NCBI GenBank assembly: GCA_026027325.1
Contig: JAMSLZ010000012.1
Span: 248,001 to 312,000 of the forward strand
Length of the DNA stretch: 64,000 nt
Source: Actinomucor elegans
Taxonomy: Eukaryota; Mucoromycota; Mucoromycetes; Mucorales; Mucoraceae
Direction of reading: 5' to 3'
In this document: positions 4,511 through 63,509 of the stretch, piece by piece
Numbering within the stretch: the stretch's first letter is position 1
How the letters are laid out: each line of letters starts with the position of its first letter
Notes under the pieces: generated by a model
What the model was told of the DNA's origin: nothing
Database searches by the model: none
Seen by the model: only the letters and a program-made list of their open reading frames with translations
Made by a program: the position numbers and the translations under genes

Positions 4511-5486
4511 TTTAAATCAGGAAAGTTTGATATGTAAACTGCGTAGTCATTCTTTATTACAATACTATTGGGGATATTTATATATTTAATTCTTCAAGTT
4601 TCTATCAGTGGTCAAGTAAGCCTTGATATTAGGTCTGTTTTCAATAGCTTGAACAAAAGCAGTCAAGCGAGGGTAAGTAGAAGCATCAATAGCAGATCCA
4701 TCATCCTCCAACATATGATAAAGGGCAAAGTCAGCGTAAGAAATTTCTTGACCAAGCAAGTAAGGACCTTCAGTATCAGATAAGATATCCTCAAAAGTAT
4801 TCATGAATTCAGGAATAGTGGTTTCCTTGTATGTCTTTAAAGCTTCTTCGGCGTTACTGCCAAACAAAGCTTCTGCCCATTTACCAGCCCAGTCCATGAC
4901 GATATCAGTGTAAGCATCCACCAAGTGGGCCTCTTCTTCATTCCTTCCTCCGTACTTACCAAGTTTGTGAGAGATCAAACGCAGAAGAGGGAGGGTTTTG
5001 CCATAATATTTGCCATCAATGGTGATGTAAGGCATAGTAGGAGCACGGATCTTGTTGGCGAGCAACTTGGCCTTTTCCTCCTTCCATTCAGCAGCACTCA
5101 ATCGGACATATTCAAAATCAACACCGGCATCTTCGAGCAACAAACGGACATATTCACCACGGCCCATAATGGCTGAAGTTTAGATAAGATAACATGTTAG
5201 ATAATTATACGCAATACAATGGCGCAATATGTCTAAACTTACTGCTTCCTTTAACAACGGTGAAATAGTGGAGCTTGAGGTTTTTGAGAGCAGCAGTCAT
5301 TTTGTATACGAGATTATTCGATTGATTTGATGTAATAACAAGTTTAAAAACCATAAAATGAATCCCTTTTATATATTTCTGATGCAGTTTGACAAAGGGA
5401 GTAGTGGAGATTGAAATTTTGTTATGCATAAAGAGAATTAATAAGCAGAGCATACTCTTTCCCCAGATGTTTTATGATTGAATGAT
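4511..5486. repeat. Duplicated segment, GST block copy A
   Basis: This stretch (3' flank, GST coding exons, intron and promoter) is repeated at about 10495-11476 in the same orientation. The 3' flank and the terminal thirds of the gene are almost identical. The middle of exon 2 and the promoter (5301-5480) are clearly more diverged. The shared part ends at AATGAT (5481-5486). Confidence 0.9.
4586..5300 (-). CDS. Glutathione S-transferase (sigma-like), copy A
   Basis: Cytosolic GST of 214 aa, the usual family length, conjugating glutathione to electrophiles or isomerising small substrates. Exons: 5300-5243 and 5172-4586, one 70-nt intron (GTAAGT..TTCAG). The N-terminal thioredoxin half has KLHYF (candidate catalytic Tyr), then GRGEYVRLLLEDAG, and the cis-proline segment APTMPYITIDG. 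The alpha-helical C-terminal half ends in ISYADFALYHMLED and NIKAYL. The place of the usual Gln/Glu-Ser glutathione-binding pair is occupied by Lys-Thr in YYGKT, and about seven residues (VVKGSTI) sit between the Tyr and GRGE compared with classical sigma GSTs. A second copy lies 6 kb downstream and differs at 13 sites, all in the central part. Substrate unknown. Confidence 0.93.
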
Positions 5487-6949: not shown

Positions 6950-7745
6950 AATGATTATTAATTAGATAAAATGCATTTGTGCATAAGCCCAATTTCTAGA
7001 AGGTACTATTCAGTATTACTAAAGATAGTCATTTATTTACATATAACTTTGATAGACTGGCATTAAAGCAAAAGTAAAGAATATCACCCAAGAAACAAGT
7101 AACCAAAACCCATAAAACCCAACATAAACGTACGTTTTGGATTCTCTCAACCTAGATCCAATCATATTCAGTGCATCCATCTTTTCCTGATTGATCTTTT
7201 TTAATTCTTCTTGAGCTGCATGCAAATACAGCGTTTTTTCGTCTTCCTCTTTGGTCTGTACGAGCTCTAGTCGACGTTCTCTTTCCAATTTGTTGGCCTG
7301 CAACCATCCAGATAATAAACGTCTATCTAAGAGCCAAAAGATACCAACAACTAATGCGGATAAACTAGCCATTGACAAATACAGTATCATGACTCCATCA
7401 TATTCTTTCTGTAGATCAGAAATATCATCATGTGGGTTACCGTCATGATAGGTTAAATCCTGAACATAGCCGACCAACACAGATACAATCGTAGTTCCTA
7501 TATTATTGGCACATTTATGAAGTCCCATACCTGTACCAGCCAGTTCATGCGGCAGTAGCAATGAGGTTGAGCTTAAAACGGACACAGGACCTAATGCCAA
7601 GGCAAATGAAAAGATAATCATGCCTATAGCAGGTGTAACCCATGTATAAGCCAGTAGGATCATGGAAGTAATCAAAATCAAAGTAGCAAAGAAGACTATA
7701 GGATTGGATTAATTAATGTTACACCATATTATATGCTTATACCTA
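6950..7745. repeat. Duplicated segment, MFS 3' block copy A
   Basis: Nearly identical, with roughly one difference per 100 bp, to 11471-12266. Covers the 3' flank, the last exon and the start of the preceding intron of the MFSD1-like transporter. Similarity stops just before exon 5. Confidence 0.9.
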
Positions 7746-10494: not shown

Positions 10495-11476
10495 TTTAAA
10501 GCAGGAAAGTTTGATATGTAAACTGCGTAGTCATTCTTTATTACAATACTATTGGGGATATTTATATATTTAATTCTTCAAGTTTCTATCAGTGGTCAAG
10601 TAAGCCTTGATATTAGGTCTGTTTTCAATAGCTTGAACAAAAGCAGTCAAGCGAGGGTAAGTAGAAGCATCAATAGCAGATCCATCATCCTCCAACATAT
10701 GATAAAGGGCAAAGTCAGCGTAAGAAATTTCTTGACCAAGCAAGTAAGGACCTTCAGTATCAGATAAGATAGCTTCAAAAGTATTCATGGATTCAGGTGC
10801 AGTGGTTTCCTTGTATGTCTTTAAAGCTTCTTCGGCGTTGCTGCCAAACAAAGTTGCTGCCCATTTACCAGCCCAGTCCATGATGATGTCAGCGTAAGTA
10901 TCCAACAAGTGGGCCTCTTCTTCATTGCTTCCTTCGTACTTGCCAAGTTTGTGAGAGATCAAACGCATAAGAGGAACAGTCTTGCCATAATATTTGCCAT
11001 CAATGGTGATGTAAGGCATAGTAGGAGCACGGATCTTGTTGGCGAGCAACTTGGCCTTTTCCTCCTTCCATTCAGCAGCACTCAATCGGACGTATTCAAA
11101 GTCAACACCGGCATCTTCGAGCAACAAACGGACATATTCACCACGGCCCATAGTGGCTAAAGTTTAGATAAGATAACATGTTAGATAATTATACGCAATA
11201 CAATGGCGCAATATGTCTAAACTTACTGCTTCCTTTAACAACGGTGAAATAGTGGAGCTTGAGGTTTTTGAGAGCAGCAGTCATTTTGTATACGAGATTA
11301 TTCGATTGATTTGATGTAATAACAAGTTCAAAGTTCATAAAACGATGTTCCTTTTATATATGTTTGATGCAGGGTTTGACAAAGGGAGTAGTGGAGGTTA
11401 AAATTTTATTTGGCATCAAGAATAATTAATAAGCAAAACATATACTTTCCCCAGATATTTTACGAAATGGAATGAT
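10495..11476. repeat. Duplicated segment, GST block copy B
   Basis: Same-orientation copy of 4511-5486. The 3' flank and the ends of the coding region match copy A almost base for base, while the central coding part and the promoter differ more. At AATGAT (11471-11476) it passes directly into the MFS block, without the 1.46-kb spacer of copy A. Confidence 0.9.
10570..11284 (-). CDS. Glutathione S-transferase (sigma-like), copy B
   Basis: Paralogue of the GST at 4586-5300, 214 aa, same two-exon structure (11284-11227 and 11156-10570) and same intron position. Residues up to YYGKT and from ILSDTEG to the C-terminus are identical to copy A apart from I/T just before MGRGEY. The 13 other amino-acid changes are packed into about 75 central residues covering the end of the thioredoxin domain and the first helices of the C-terminal domain (for example L/V, L/M, G/E, R/S, E/A, F/S, D/A). 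All core motifs remain and the frame is open, so it is probably functional. The changes fall where dimer contacts and the hydrophobic substrate pocket usually lie, suggesting a different substrate preference; this is inference. Confidence 0.92.
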
Positions 11477-12266
11477 TATTAATTAGATAAAATGCATTTG
11501 TGCACAAGCCCAATTTCTAGAAGGTACTATTCAGTATTACTAAAGATAGTCATTTATTTACATATAACGTTGATAGACTGGCATTAAAGCAAAAGTAAAG
11601 AATATCACCCAAGGAACAAGTAACCAAAACCCATAAAACCCAACATAAACGTACGTTTTGGATTCTCTCAACCTAGATCCAATCATATTCAGTGCATCCA
11701 TCTTTTCCTGATTGATCTTTTTTAATTCTTCTTGAGCTGCATGCAAATACAGCGTTTTTTCGTCTTCCTCTTTGGTCTGTACGAGCTCTAGTCGACGTTC
11801 TCTTTCCAATTTGTTGGCCTGCAACCATCCAGATAATAAACGTCTATCTAAGAGCCAAAAGATACCAACAACTAATGCGGATAAACTAGCCATTGACAAA
11901 TACAGTATCATGACTCCATCATATTCTTTCTGTAGATCAGAAATATCATCATGTGGGTTACCGTCATGATAGGTTAAATCCTGAACATAGCCGACCAATA
12001 CAGATACAATCGTAGTTCCTATATTATTGGCACATTTATGAAGTCCCATACCTGTACCAGCCAGTTCATGCGGCAGTAGCAATGAGGTTGAGCTTAAAAC
12101 GGACACAGGACTTAATGCCAAGGCAAATGAAAAGATAATCATGCCTATAGCAGGTGTAGCCCATGTATAAGCCAGTAGGATCATGGAAGTAATCAAAATC
12201 AAAGTAGCAAAGAAGATTATAGGATTGGATTAACTAATGCTATGCCATATTATGCGCTTATACCCA
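11471..12266. repeat. Duplicated segment, MFS 3' block copy B
   Basis: Copy of 6950-7745, about 99% identical by eye over its first 740 bp. It is attached to the promoter side of GST copy B at a shared AATGAT hexamer and ends near 12266, where resemblance to copy A is lost. Confidence 0.9.
11558..12216 (-). pseudogene. Truncated MFSD1-like transporter (last exon only)
   Basis: Corresponds to the final exon (last ~219 residues) of the transporter at 7037-9141. No upstream exons exist here. The splice acceptor that precedes this exon in copy A (TATAG before TCTTC) reads TATAA in this copy, so the AG is lost. The reading frame itself is still open, with four amino-acid changes near its ends (V/A, G/S, S/P, S/R). 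Best read as a recent partial duplication and non-functional, although a transcript using the in-frame Met at 12202 cannot be excluded. Confidence 0.9.
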
Positions 12267-15127: not shown

Positions 15128-16945
15128 ATGTATGATCAACAAGCTCCTTTTTATCCAACGGTATTCGAAAACAAACAGTATCAGCAGCAGATGTTACAGG
15201 TCAAAAGCGTCAAAAACAACTACTCTCCAGCTACCGTATCTTCACTCTCTTCCTCGCCTGAGGCTTATTCTACCGACATAGACTTGCAATTTTCTTGTGA
15301 AAATCTCAGTGCCGCGTTCAGTCAAGCTAGTCTCAACACGCCATACGATCCTAATTGTCTTGAGTCCTTGGACGAGTTTCTGGATGAACTCGATGATATG
15401 CAAGAATATGAAACACCTTCTGCTGAAACTATATTATTCTTTGAAATCCTTCAGGAATTTCCTGATCTCGCCACTTTTATTGGCCATAAAGACTTTGGCA
15501 TTTTTGCTCATCTCTGGTTAGATCTGCAGCAAAATATTAGACTAGCCAAGGAACCTTCTCAACGTCCTGTAGTGCAATCCTGGCTCAAGAACGCAGCTCT
15601 TCAAATTCATTTTTTGCTGGTCACTATTGTAAAAACCAATCATGGAAACAAGGACTTGAAATCTGAACCTCGTTGTATGTTTTCTGCGTTTCGCCGCCTC
15701 AAAGACCGTATTGAAATCATGTACCAAGTCTTTGAGCTGATTGAAAATGGCCGTGTTTGGTTTAATCAAACACCTTTGGAAGCCATCGCTCCTTTGTCGA
15801 ATTCAGCTAAAATGATTGCAAAGGATATAATGTATTTTGAAAAGAATCCAGAAATCCTCCCTTTGGTTGATCCAAGCAACGGTCGCGTTGAGCTGGTTAA
15901 TGCTAAAGAAGTGACCATGGAAGACTTATCCATGCGTGTCCTTCATTCGTACAATATGCCGTTCATCTTTGATTCAGCTTCTGCAAAGAGCCTTATCGTC
16001 CAGCTAAATCAGCAAGAAACAACGAATGGTAGATCTTTAAGTCTGCCAAGTTTACAACAAGACTTGCCGGCGTTTTCAGCCTCTGAATCAATCCCCACTC
16101 AAAATTCTCATTTAGACTTCCATGCTCAACAGAATTTCGTTCGTGGAGAATCAAACCCTACCACACCATTTTCCCATATACAACCTGCTTGGATTCATTC
16201 CTCTGGTGTTTGGTCTATGCCTGTAACACCTTACGCATCTACGCGCACTCAAGAAGAAGCTACGATTGCTAGTACAGTCAATACGCCTTGCAATATCATA
16301 CAGGGTTCATCTTTGTCTTTAAACTCTACTACTACTATTACTCCTCTTAATACGTTCAGTGAAGGGAATACGGATGACGAATTCTCTGTTTGTATCAAAG
16401 ACGATGAAGACTATGTGGTTTCTGATCCAGAAGACGAAGACTGGAAAGAAAGTTCTCCACCCAGAAGAAGATCGAAACGCGCTATTGCTGCTACTGTTGT
16501 TGCTGCTACCGTGACCGATCCTAAAACAAGTTTTGGGCAAGATTTACATAAAGTAAAATCCCAGAAACCTCGCAGAAGGGCGACTGAGAGACAATTTACT
16601 CGTCGAACTGCAACTTCATATGACTCGCATACTACTCATTATCTTAAGTCAGTCTTTTTTGATATTTACAGTAGTCGTGATAAGCTTACTAAAGAACAGC
16701 GTCGCCGAGTGCAGAAGGATACGGGTCTGAAACCAAGAAACATTACTTATTGGTTTAGCAATCACAAACGTCGCTTTCAGGCATCATTGGCTGTATACAA
16801 GAAGGTAGTAAAAGAAAGCCAGGGCATGGTGAAAAGTTATGACGATTTTCTGAACTGGAGGCGCTCTCGAGGATTGCCAGATGAAGTACTTGATAAGGAA
16901 GCTATTGGTCTGGATTTGATACTGACAAAACAGCATCAACAATAA
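15128..16945 (+). CDS. Homeodomain transcription factor
   Basis: Single-exon protein of 605 aa. The N-terminal 90 residues are Gln/Ser-rich. Residues ~100-290 form a predicted helical region without a recognised family (ETILFFEILQEFPDLATF and onwards). A long Ser/Thr-rich linker contains an acidic patch (~410-440) followed by a basic PPRRRSKR nuclear-localisation candidate. The homeodomain lies at ~490-552: helix 3 reads NITYWFSNHKRRF, with the invariant Trp48, Phe49 and Asn51, while Arg53 is Lys. Helices 1 and 2 (YLKSVFFDIYS, KLTKEQRRRVQKDTG) have normal spacing. It should bind DNA in the nucleus. The closest resemblance is to fungal HD1-type factors, but no orthologue can be named from sequence alone. 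Confidence 0.85.
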   Translation: MYDQQAPFYPTVFENKQYQQQMLQVKSVKNNYSPATVSSLSSSPEAYSTDIDLQFSCENLSAAFSQASLNTPYDPNCLESLDEFLDELDDMQEYETPSAETILFFEILQEFPDLATFIGHKDFGIFAHLWLDLQQNIRLAKEPSQRPVVQSWLKNAALQIHFLLVTIVKTNHGNKDLKSEPRCMFSAFRRLKDRIEIMYQVFELIENGRVWFNQTPLEAIAPLSNSAKMIAKDIMYFEKNPEILPLVDPSNGRVELVNAKEVTMEDLSMRVLHSYNMPFIFDSASAKSLIVQLNQQETTNGRSLSLPSLQQDLPAFSASESIPTQNSHLDFHAQQNFVRGESNPTTPFSHIQPAWIHSSGVWSMPVTPYASTRTQEEATIASTVNTPCNIIQGSSLSLNSTTTITPLNTFSEGNTDDEFSVCIKDDEDYVVSDPEDEDWKESSPPRRRSKRAIAATVVAATVTDPKTSFGQDLHKVKSQKPRRRATERQFTRRTATSYDSHTTHYLKSVFFDIYSSRDKLTKEQRRRVQKDTGLKPRNITYWFSNHKRRFQASLAVYKKVVKESQGMVKSYDDFLNWRRSRGLPDEVLDKEAIGLDLILTKQHQQ

Positions 16946-62745: not shown

Positions 62746-63509
62746 ATGAAGTAATGTATCCAATACAACATCAAAATACAACATGGATTATGGATGAATG
62801 AATAAACAACGAACAGATGGATGACTGATGAGTTTTATTTCAAATGGATAGGCTTGAGATTTGCTCCTTCTCTGGTCACAAGATTTACCCTGCTAAGGGT
62901 AAGACCTACGTCCGTGTCGACTCCAGGTAAAAAAAAAATCATTTTAAAGGTCTTGGGGATTAAGCTAACTCTTTGCTTTTTTTTTTCATGTAGAGTAAGC
63001 ATTCCAATCGATTCAATGCCAGATTATGTAAAATAACAAGACGATAAACTAACATTCAATTATTTAGACTTTCCGTTTCATTAACGGTAAGGCCGCCTCT
63101 TACTTCCTTCAACGTTTGAACCCCCGTAAGATCAGATGGACTGTTATCTACCGTCGTTTGAACAAGAAGGGTATGACTGAGGAAATCCAAAAGAAGCGTT
63201 CTCGTCGTACTGTCAAGCACGAACGTGCTGTTGTTGGTGCCTCTTGGGATGCTATCCGTGCTAAGCGTAACCAAAAGCCCGATGCTCGTGCTGCTGCTCG
63301 TCAAGCTGCCATCTCCAAGTCCAAGGATGCCAAGAAGGCTGCTGCTGCCGCTAAGAAGGCCGCTAACCCTGCTGTAAGTATTATGGATCGTTGGATAAAG
63401 TGAAAATCCTGTGTATTTACTCAATTCTTTACATTAGGGTTCTCAACCTAAGGTTAGCAAGCAACAAGCCAAGGGTTTCGCCCCTAAGGCCGCTGCCACC
63501 TCTCGCTAA
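62746..63509 (+). CDS. RPL24: 60S ribosomal protein eL24
   Basis: Cytosolic large-subunit protein, predicted 152 aa. Exons: 62746-62750 (ATGAA only), 62852-62926, 62994 (one base), 63068-63373, 63438-63509. Sequence: start [20 protein letters not shown], the zinc-free eukaryotic form, then [32 protein letters not shown], the basic helix [20 protein letters not shown] and the end [17 protein letters not shown]. Exon 2 ends in AG (phase 2) and exon 4 begins ACT in phase 0, so exactly one more base is needed for the conserved Arg. The base A at 62994, between a complete intron ending CATGTAG and another starting GTAAGC, supplies it. Codon use (CGT, AAG, GCT, GCC) is that of a highly expressed gene. 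Confidence 0.95.

Follow-up and report, generated by a model that had tools for sequence, protein, structure and literature searches.

The window is a stretch of 64,000 nucleotides from Actinomucor elegans (contig JAMSLZ010000012.1, positions 248,001 to 312,000, forward strand). At positions 62746-63509 of its plus strand we find a gene for the ribosomal protein eL24, with the following parts.

62746..62750, plus strand: exon 1 (ATG AA), with the same arrangement in the paralogs
62751..62851, plus strand: intron 1 (GTAATG..GATAG)
62852..62926, plus strand: exon 2, ending in phase 2 (..GAC TCC AG)
62927..62993, plus strand: intron 2a, 67 nt (CAG/GTAAAA..CTAAC..CATGTAG/A, CTAAC at 62965-62969)
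62994..62994, plus strand: putative single-nucleotide exon A, third base of AGA (Arg27), the sole GT-AG solution in 3/3 paralogs
62995..63067, plus strand: intron 2b, 73 nt (AGA/GTAAGC..CTAAC..ATTTAG/ACT, CTAAC at 63049-63053), at the phase-0 position of the single RLP24 intron
63068..63373, plus strand: exon 4
63374..63437, plus strand: intron 3 (GTAAGT..CATTAG)
63438..63509, plus strand: exon 5 with the stop TAA

Spliced with A62994 included, the gene encodes a protein of 152 residues. The best PDB match of this product is a fungal eL24 chain and spans all 152 residues, and in all five PDB alignments displayed the joint is free of gaps.

Elsewhere in the window, four open reading frames on the minus strand (4586-5167, 7037-7663, 10570-11151 and 11558-12184) form two pairs, of 194 and 209 aminoacids. 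Within the pairs the first 60 residues are nearly identical, and the copies lie about 4.5-6 kb apart. This looks like a tandem duplication of glutathione-transferase-like and transporter-like genes, labels that were given by eye. The homeobox protein encoded at 15128-16945 has 28 relatives in a protein search. The best of these shows 65% identity over its whole length, and Gilbertella, which scores best among the named ones, 47% over 92%; shorter matches reach 56% and 76%, over 36% and 17%.

In terms of reading frame, the phases of exons 2 and 4 are incompatible unless one base is added. Exon 2 stops two bases into a codon at 62926, and exon 4 starts with the whole codon ACT TTC CGT at 63068. 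Joined directly, they shift the frame and run into a stop 49 nt past the joint; the preliminary description had placed it within about 50 bases, and its coordinates and letters for these exons and both introns are accurate too. A62994 is bordered by AG and GT and separates two complete GT-AG introns. We conclude from the sequence that one constitutive exon of eL24 very probably consists of a single nucleotide, A62994, which completes an arginine codon split as AG/A. In this case, the mRNA of the window copy would read CCAGAACTTTCC at the joint (with A).

The possible products were enumerated over every GT-AG path of one or two steps, nested paths among them, between early exon 2 and a point 60 nt inside exon 4; introns had to be at least 40 nt long. 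The only product that contains VRVDS[RK]TFRFINGK is obtained by removing 62927-62993 and 62995-63067, in either order. At the other two eL24 loci the same enumeration again leaves the one-base exon as the sole solution that restores the motif. The earlier proposal that A62994 restores D-S-R-T-F-R-F is thus borne out as the only canonical one-step or two-step solution in 3/3 paralogs.

The candidate products were also scored against an eL24 profile built from 42 models of other named organisms. The one-base-exon product reaches 238.3 bits, followed by products with a 28-nt exon (225.1), a donor at -11 (220.2), a 34-nt exon (220.1), and donors at -17 (212.0) and -35 (191.8). The direct join of exons 2 and 4 scores 42.5 bits. 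The 34-nt exon, at 62994-63027 of the window copy, is in frame and adds 11 residues; neither of the other two paralogs has such an exon.

The genome searched, 36.5 Mb in 27 contigs, contains three eL24 and two RLP24 genes. All three eL24 genes have the arrangement CAG/GTA..TAG/A/GTANG..TAG/ACTTTCC. Intron 2a measures 67 nt in the window copy (C4), 60 nt in C23 and 62 nt in C12, and intron 2b 73, 75 and 110 nt respectively, for a total of 136-173 nt between exons 2 and 4. Taken singly, introns 2a (60-67 nt) and 2b (73-110 nt) are of usual length, the other introns of the eL24 genes and RLP24 measuring 53-101 nt. The window copy has a donor, a CTAAC and an acceptor in each of the two introns, as originally described; a branch-like CTRAY site is missing in two of the six introns, C23 2a and C12 2b. 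The two donors differ consistently across the three copies: that of 2a combines G at -1 with a base other than G at +5, and that of 2b combines A at -1 with G at +5. Such compensation across the exon-intron border of a donor has been described.

Outside these signals the introns have diverged. Five of the six intron alignments between copies are little above mononucleotide shuffles (z from -2.3 to 2.5), the sixth being C23 2a versus C12 2a (z = 4.5), and coding dS between the copies is 0.30-0.40. We made 20,000 dinucleotide shuffles per locus and looked in them for TAG-A-GTANG at a distance of about 45 nt or more from either end. It appeared in 0.01%, 0.02% and 0.02% of the shuffles of the three loci, and it is present in 3/3 actual loci; the three frequencies must not be multiplied, because the paralogs share ancestry. 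The retention of TAG-A-GTANG in otherwise diverged introns suggests selection on the string.

Relatives were surveyed through their protein models, with the best 120 of 242 eL24 matches all classed by their state at the joint. Among the matches listed, the closest named ones for both eL24 and RLP24 come from Mucor and Choanephora. Taken over eL24, RLP24 and the homeobox protein, the named matches are led by Mucor, Parasitella, Choanephora, Gilbertella and further Mucorales, in keeping with a mucoralean genome. Mucorales models in this set are intact at the joint in 19/61 cases and broken at or upstream of it in 42/61. The broken ones comprise 10 with insertions after DSR, 10 with residues deleted before the joint, 6 with jumps or frame changes after DSR, 4 that go wrong after DS and 12 in which the exon before the joint is missing or out of frame. 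None of the 6 models from Umbelopsis (Umbelopsidales, which belong to the subphylum Mucoromycotina, as do Mucorales) is intact: 2 have deletions before the joint, and in 4 the upstream exon is absent or out of frame. Still within the best 120 of 242, models from other named organisms are intact in 42/42 cases, with 0 broken, and those lacking an organism name in 10/11. Counted by name, one or more intact models exist for 18 of the 41 Mucorales in this set, and one or more broken models for 30.

Taking Mucorales and Umbelopsidales together, the break lies at the joint or upstream of it in 48/67 models among the best 120 of 242, and at the joint itself in 32/67. The remaining 16 of the 48 (12 from Mucorales, 4 from Umbelopsis) are those whose upstream exon is absent or out of frame, and they may have another cause, such as the 5-nt exon 1. 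A Fisher test comparing these 67 models (19 intact, 48 broken) with the 42 of other named organisms (all intact) gives p of about 1e-15; as species and paralogs are related, this value treats the models as more independent than they are.

RLP24 served to control for the quality of annotation, through the best 120 of 5497 matches. At the homologous joint, 48/49 named Mucorales and Umbelopsidales models are intact, and so are 71/71 of the others. Lists by best score favour intact models, and the species sets of the eL24 and RLP24 lists differ. The lone broken RLP24 model scores 254 bits and the list ends at 222, so that similar broken models would mostly appear among these 120.

The way in which the eL24 models break was read by inspection, as back-translation of protein rather than from DNA. 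Nine broken models (P0007, P0008, P0018, P0026, P0027, P0043, P0086, P0099 and P0112), from Mucor, Rhizopus, Absidia, Rhizomucor and Lichtheimia, read R-V-[R/S/C], as would be expected if the 2a acceptor were used, the A included and a GTACGT, GTAAGT or GTATGT donor run through. In P0019 and P0091 a Y follows R, as run-through of the 2a donor would give. P0025 (Y-R-T-F) and P0108 (C-R-T-F) read as an unspliced 2a end (YAG), the A and exon 4 would. P0034, from Rhizopus delemar, starts MLFCIEY, compatible with TTTTGTATAG/A/GTAC, and P0046 and P0055 carry DSRLSV, the directly joined frame. P0001, P0002 and P0071 carry inserts that these readings leave unexplained. As for the comparison of AG-A-GT in other Mucorales that the preliminary description had proposed, the arrangement is kept in 3/3 paralogs of this genome; in the other species we infer it from mis-spliced protein models. 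Some of the intact Mucorales genes may lack the micro-exon. The Syncephalastrum model P0085 reads DSK, not DSR.

The most serious alternative is one long intron of which one end is non-canonical, either GT-TA (62927-63066) or TA-AG (62928-63067); it leaves a G and gives AGG ACT, again Arg-Thr. The intervening sequence has G at both its start and its end, so a one-base slip is formally possible, and the mRNA joint of the window copy would then read CCAGGACTTTCC (with G). Protein evidence does not separate this intron from the one-base exon, because AGG yields an identical protein and profile score. Against it, TAG-A-GTANG in 3/3 paralogs, found in 0.01-0.02% of shuffles each, would be left unexplained, as would the models from other species that read through into R-V-[RSC]. 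Furthermore, a rare intron class would have to be retained in three copies, and the intron would measure 136-173 nt, against 53-101 nt for the other introns of the eL24 genes and RLP24. The GT-TA intron is therefore disfavoured, and we consider a non-canonical end of either kind very unlikely. Less probable again is a real product with a longer in-frame internal exon (e.g. 34 nt, +11 residues) or with an upstream donor that drops residues. Exons of 34 and 28 nt are frame-compatible in the window copy, but no longer internal exon of up to 60 nt is common to all three paralogs. Donors at -11, -17 and -35 are frame-compatible in all three eL24 copies, and upstream donors are often used in the models of relatives (12 among the best 120 of 242 are without VRxDSR or part of it); yet they remove residues that are present in 42/42 models of other named organisms in that set. 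The profile score drops by 18-47 bits with the upstream donors and by 13-18 bits with the two longer exons.

The remaining alternatives seem to us next to negligible. Stwintrons are known from fungi, and the string AG-AG-TAAG permits a [D1,2]-like parse, in which an internal intron 62927-62995 would split the external donor G/TAAGC, TAGAGTA having a second acceptor at TAGAG. This parse is out of frame, and no nested path restores the motif in any of the three paralogs. An assembly or base-calling error, or a pseudogene, merits a thought of similar size, as the eL24 sequence is known from the assembly alone. Three separate loci, however, have the same arrangement with different intron sequences, and an error at the window copy is contradicted because two further paralogs keep TAG-A-GTANG at the same codon within introns that are poorly alignable. 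Against a pseudogene, all three copies encode 152 aminoacids when the A is included, with dN of 0.006-0.009 and dS of 0.30-0.40 between copies.

Returning to the one-base exon, its splicing would most likely be sequential, because in TAG-A-GTAAG the 2a acceptor and the 2b donor overlap and their simultaneous occupation is unlikely. Exon definition is hard to imagine for such an exon; flanking introns of usual length would fit intron definition, by which 2a and 2b could be removed one after the other. The order would be free, because excising either intron leaves the signals of the other unchanged. The preliminary description had offered an exon or a stepwise site as alternatives, and these are not exclusive: removal in sequence is the most likely course, yet a ratchet point of zero length would leave nothing in the mRNA, and here one base is kept. 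A zero-nucleotide recursive ratchet point was considered as a candidate class for the site and rejected on the same AG-A-GT arrangement.

Relatives' eL24 models often break at the same joint while their RLP24 models are intact in 48/49 cases, and for this reason the one-base exon is probably as old as Mucorales. Skipping of A62994 is computed to shift the frame, with a stop 49 nt past the joint and 254 nt before the last exon junction. A bolder proposal is that the exon became fixed in an ancestor common to Mucorales and Umbelopsidales, that eL24 copies have retained it ever since and that it acts as a control point, the efficiency of two-step splicing setting eL24 output because skipping yields a frameshifted mRNA with an early stop. 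We regard this as unlikely, though not to the degree of the alternatives above.

Some indication of how the pair of introns arose comes from the sister gene. At the corresponding codon boundary, each of the two RLP24 genes has a single phase-0 intron (AAG/gt..ag/AC(T/C)), in the position of eL24 intron 2b. The phase-0 position is likely old, because RLP24 has its single intron there, and the phase-2 intron 2a, one base upstream, is likely the addition. An old phase-0 intron at the codon boundary, still alone in RLP24, would thus have become a pair, in the ancestor of Mucorales and possibly of Umbelopsidales too. The pair would have been retained because loss or skipping of the base would shift the frame of a ribosomal protein.

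Three routes to this pair were considered. Intron 2a may have been inserted at CAG/A, one base upstream of the old phase-0 intron; the intron may have been duplicated in tandem together with the first base of exon 4; or one base may have been lost at the end of exon 2 and the loss rescued by a cryptic one-base exon. Base loss and rescue of this kind is what the Fusarium authors propose for CYP621A (PMC12940212). When the genes are compared, RLP24 (L012, L013) reads GACAG(C/T)AAG/GTA and eL24 in C23 and C12 (L009, L010) reads GA(C/T)AGCAG/GTA, one A fewer. The missing A may be a trace of the frameshift that led to the one-base exon.

For exon recognition by the spliceosome, an exon of a single base is the limiting case. 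Ribosomal-protein genes are likely highly expressed, and RNA-seq of Mucorales should exist in public archives; therefore existing data could yield the order of removal, its fidelity and the skipping rate. How a one-base exon arises can be approached by comparing the three paralogs with a sister gene, RLP24, that has a single intron. In terms of annotation, 48/67 eL24 models of Mucorales and Umbelopsidales among the best 120 of 242 have an error or a truncation at the joint or upstream of it, which suggests that the one-base exon is old and has been overlooked.

One-base exons as such are already known, and what is new is this eL24 case. Mitochondrial cases, a placozoan one included, have reportedly been published. 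Our search of open-licence papers turned up no such exon from any member of Mucorales, nor from any gene for a ribosomal protein. The preliminary description had called them very rare, naming a plant APC11 case; to it can be added VPS55, Fusarium CYP621A and the snoRNA hosts of Candida. The nuclear protein-coding cases that the open-licence literature yielded, in the parts cited here, comprise two genes of plants and, from a single fungal genus, a P450 that is rarely expressed.

The closest parallel in plants is Arabidopsis APC11, with a one-base exon backed by RNA and construct evidence (PMC4674806; PMC8831610). As in eL24, the exon is an A between two introns with AG/GT borders, the base is needed for the frame and annotation had missed it. 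APC11 is a plant cell-cycle gene, whereas eL24 is a mucoralean ribosomal-protein gene with three paralogs, known from sequence. The APC11 authors suggest successive removal, by intron definition and recursive splicing, and the sequential removal proposed for eL24 would agree with this (PMC4674806). In the case of VPS55, the one-nucleotide microexon is conserved across land plants, has a GTRAGT donor and is missing in the reference annotations examined. It occurs in one of two paralog clades in flowering plants, and here in all three eL24 paralogs; in some other plants it is alternatively spliced (PMC8831610).

Among fungi, Fusarium CYP621A has a one-nucleotide exon covered by 18 RNA reads. It resembles eL24 in that one base lies inside a conserved codon as AG-N-GT, and the intervening length is similar as well, 139 nt in F. 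graminearum and 136-173 nt in eL24. All but one of its database transcript models are wrong at the joint. The two differ in the base, a G in the middle of a glycine codon in CYP621A and an A in third place of an arginine codon in eL24, and in the host, a rarely expressed P450 of one genus as opposed to a ribosomal-protein gene apparently across an order (PMC12940212). The snoRNA host transcripts of Candida share with eL24 fungal introns separated by one base, and the order of removal has been discussed there from RNA-seq; the host RNA is non-coding, without a reading frame to protect, unlike eL24 (PMC5033589). Ascomycete stwintrons are likewise pairs of introns at a single site that are excised in consecutive steps, but in them the internal intron breaks up a splice signal of the external intron and no exon is left, whereas eL24 keeps one base (PMC5639578). 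Lastly, the eL24 case is unusual in how old it appears to be, in the gene that hosts it and in being present in all eL24 copies of this genome.
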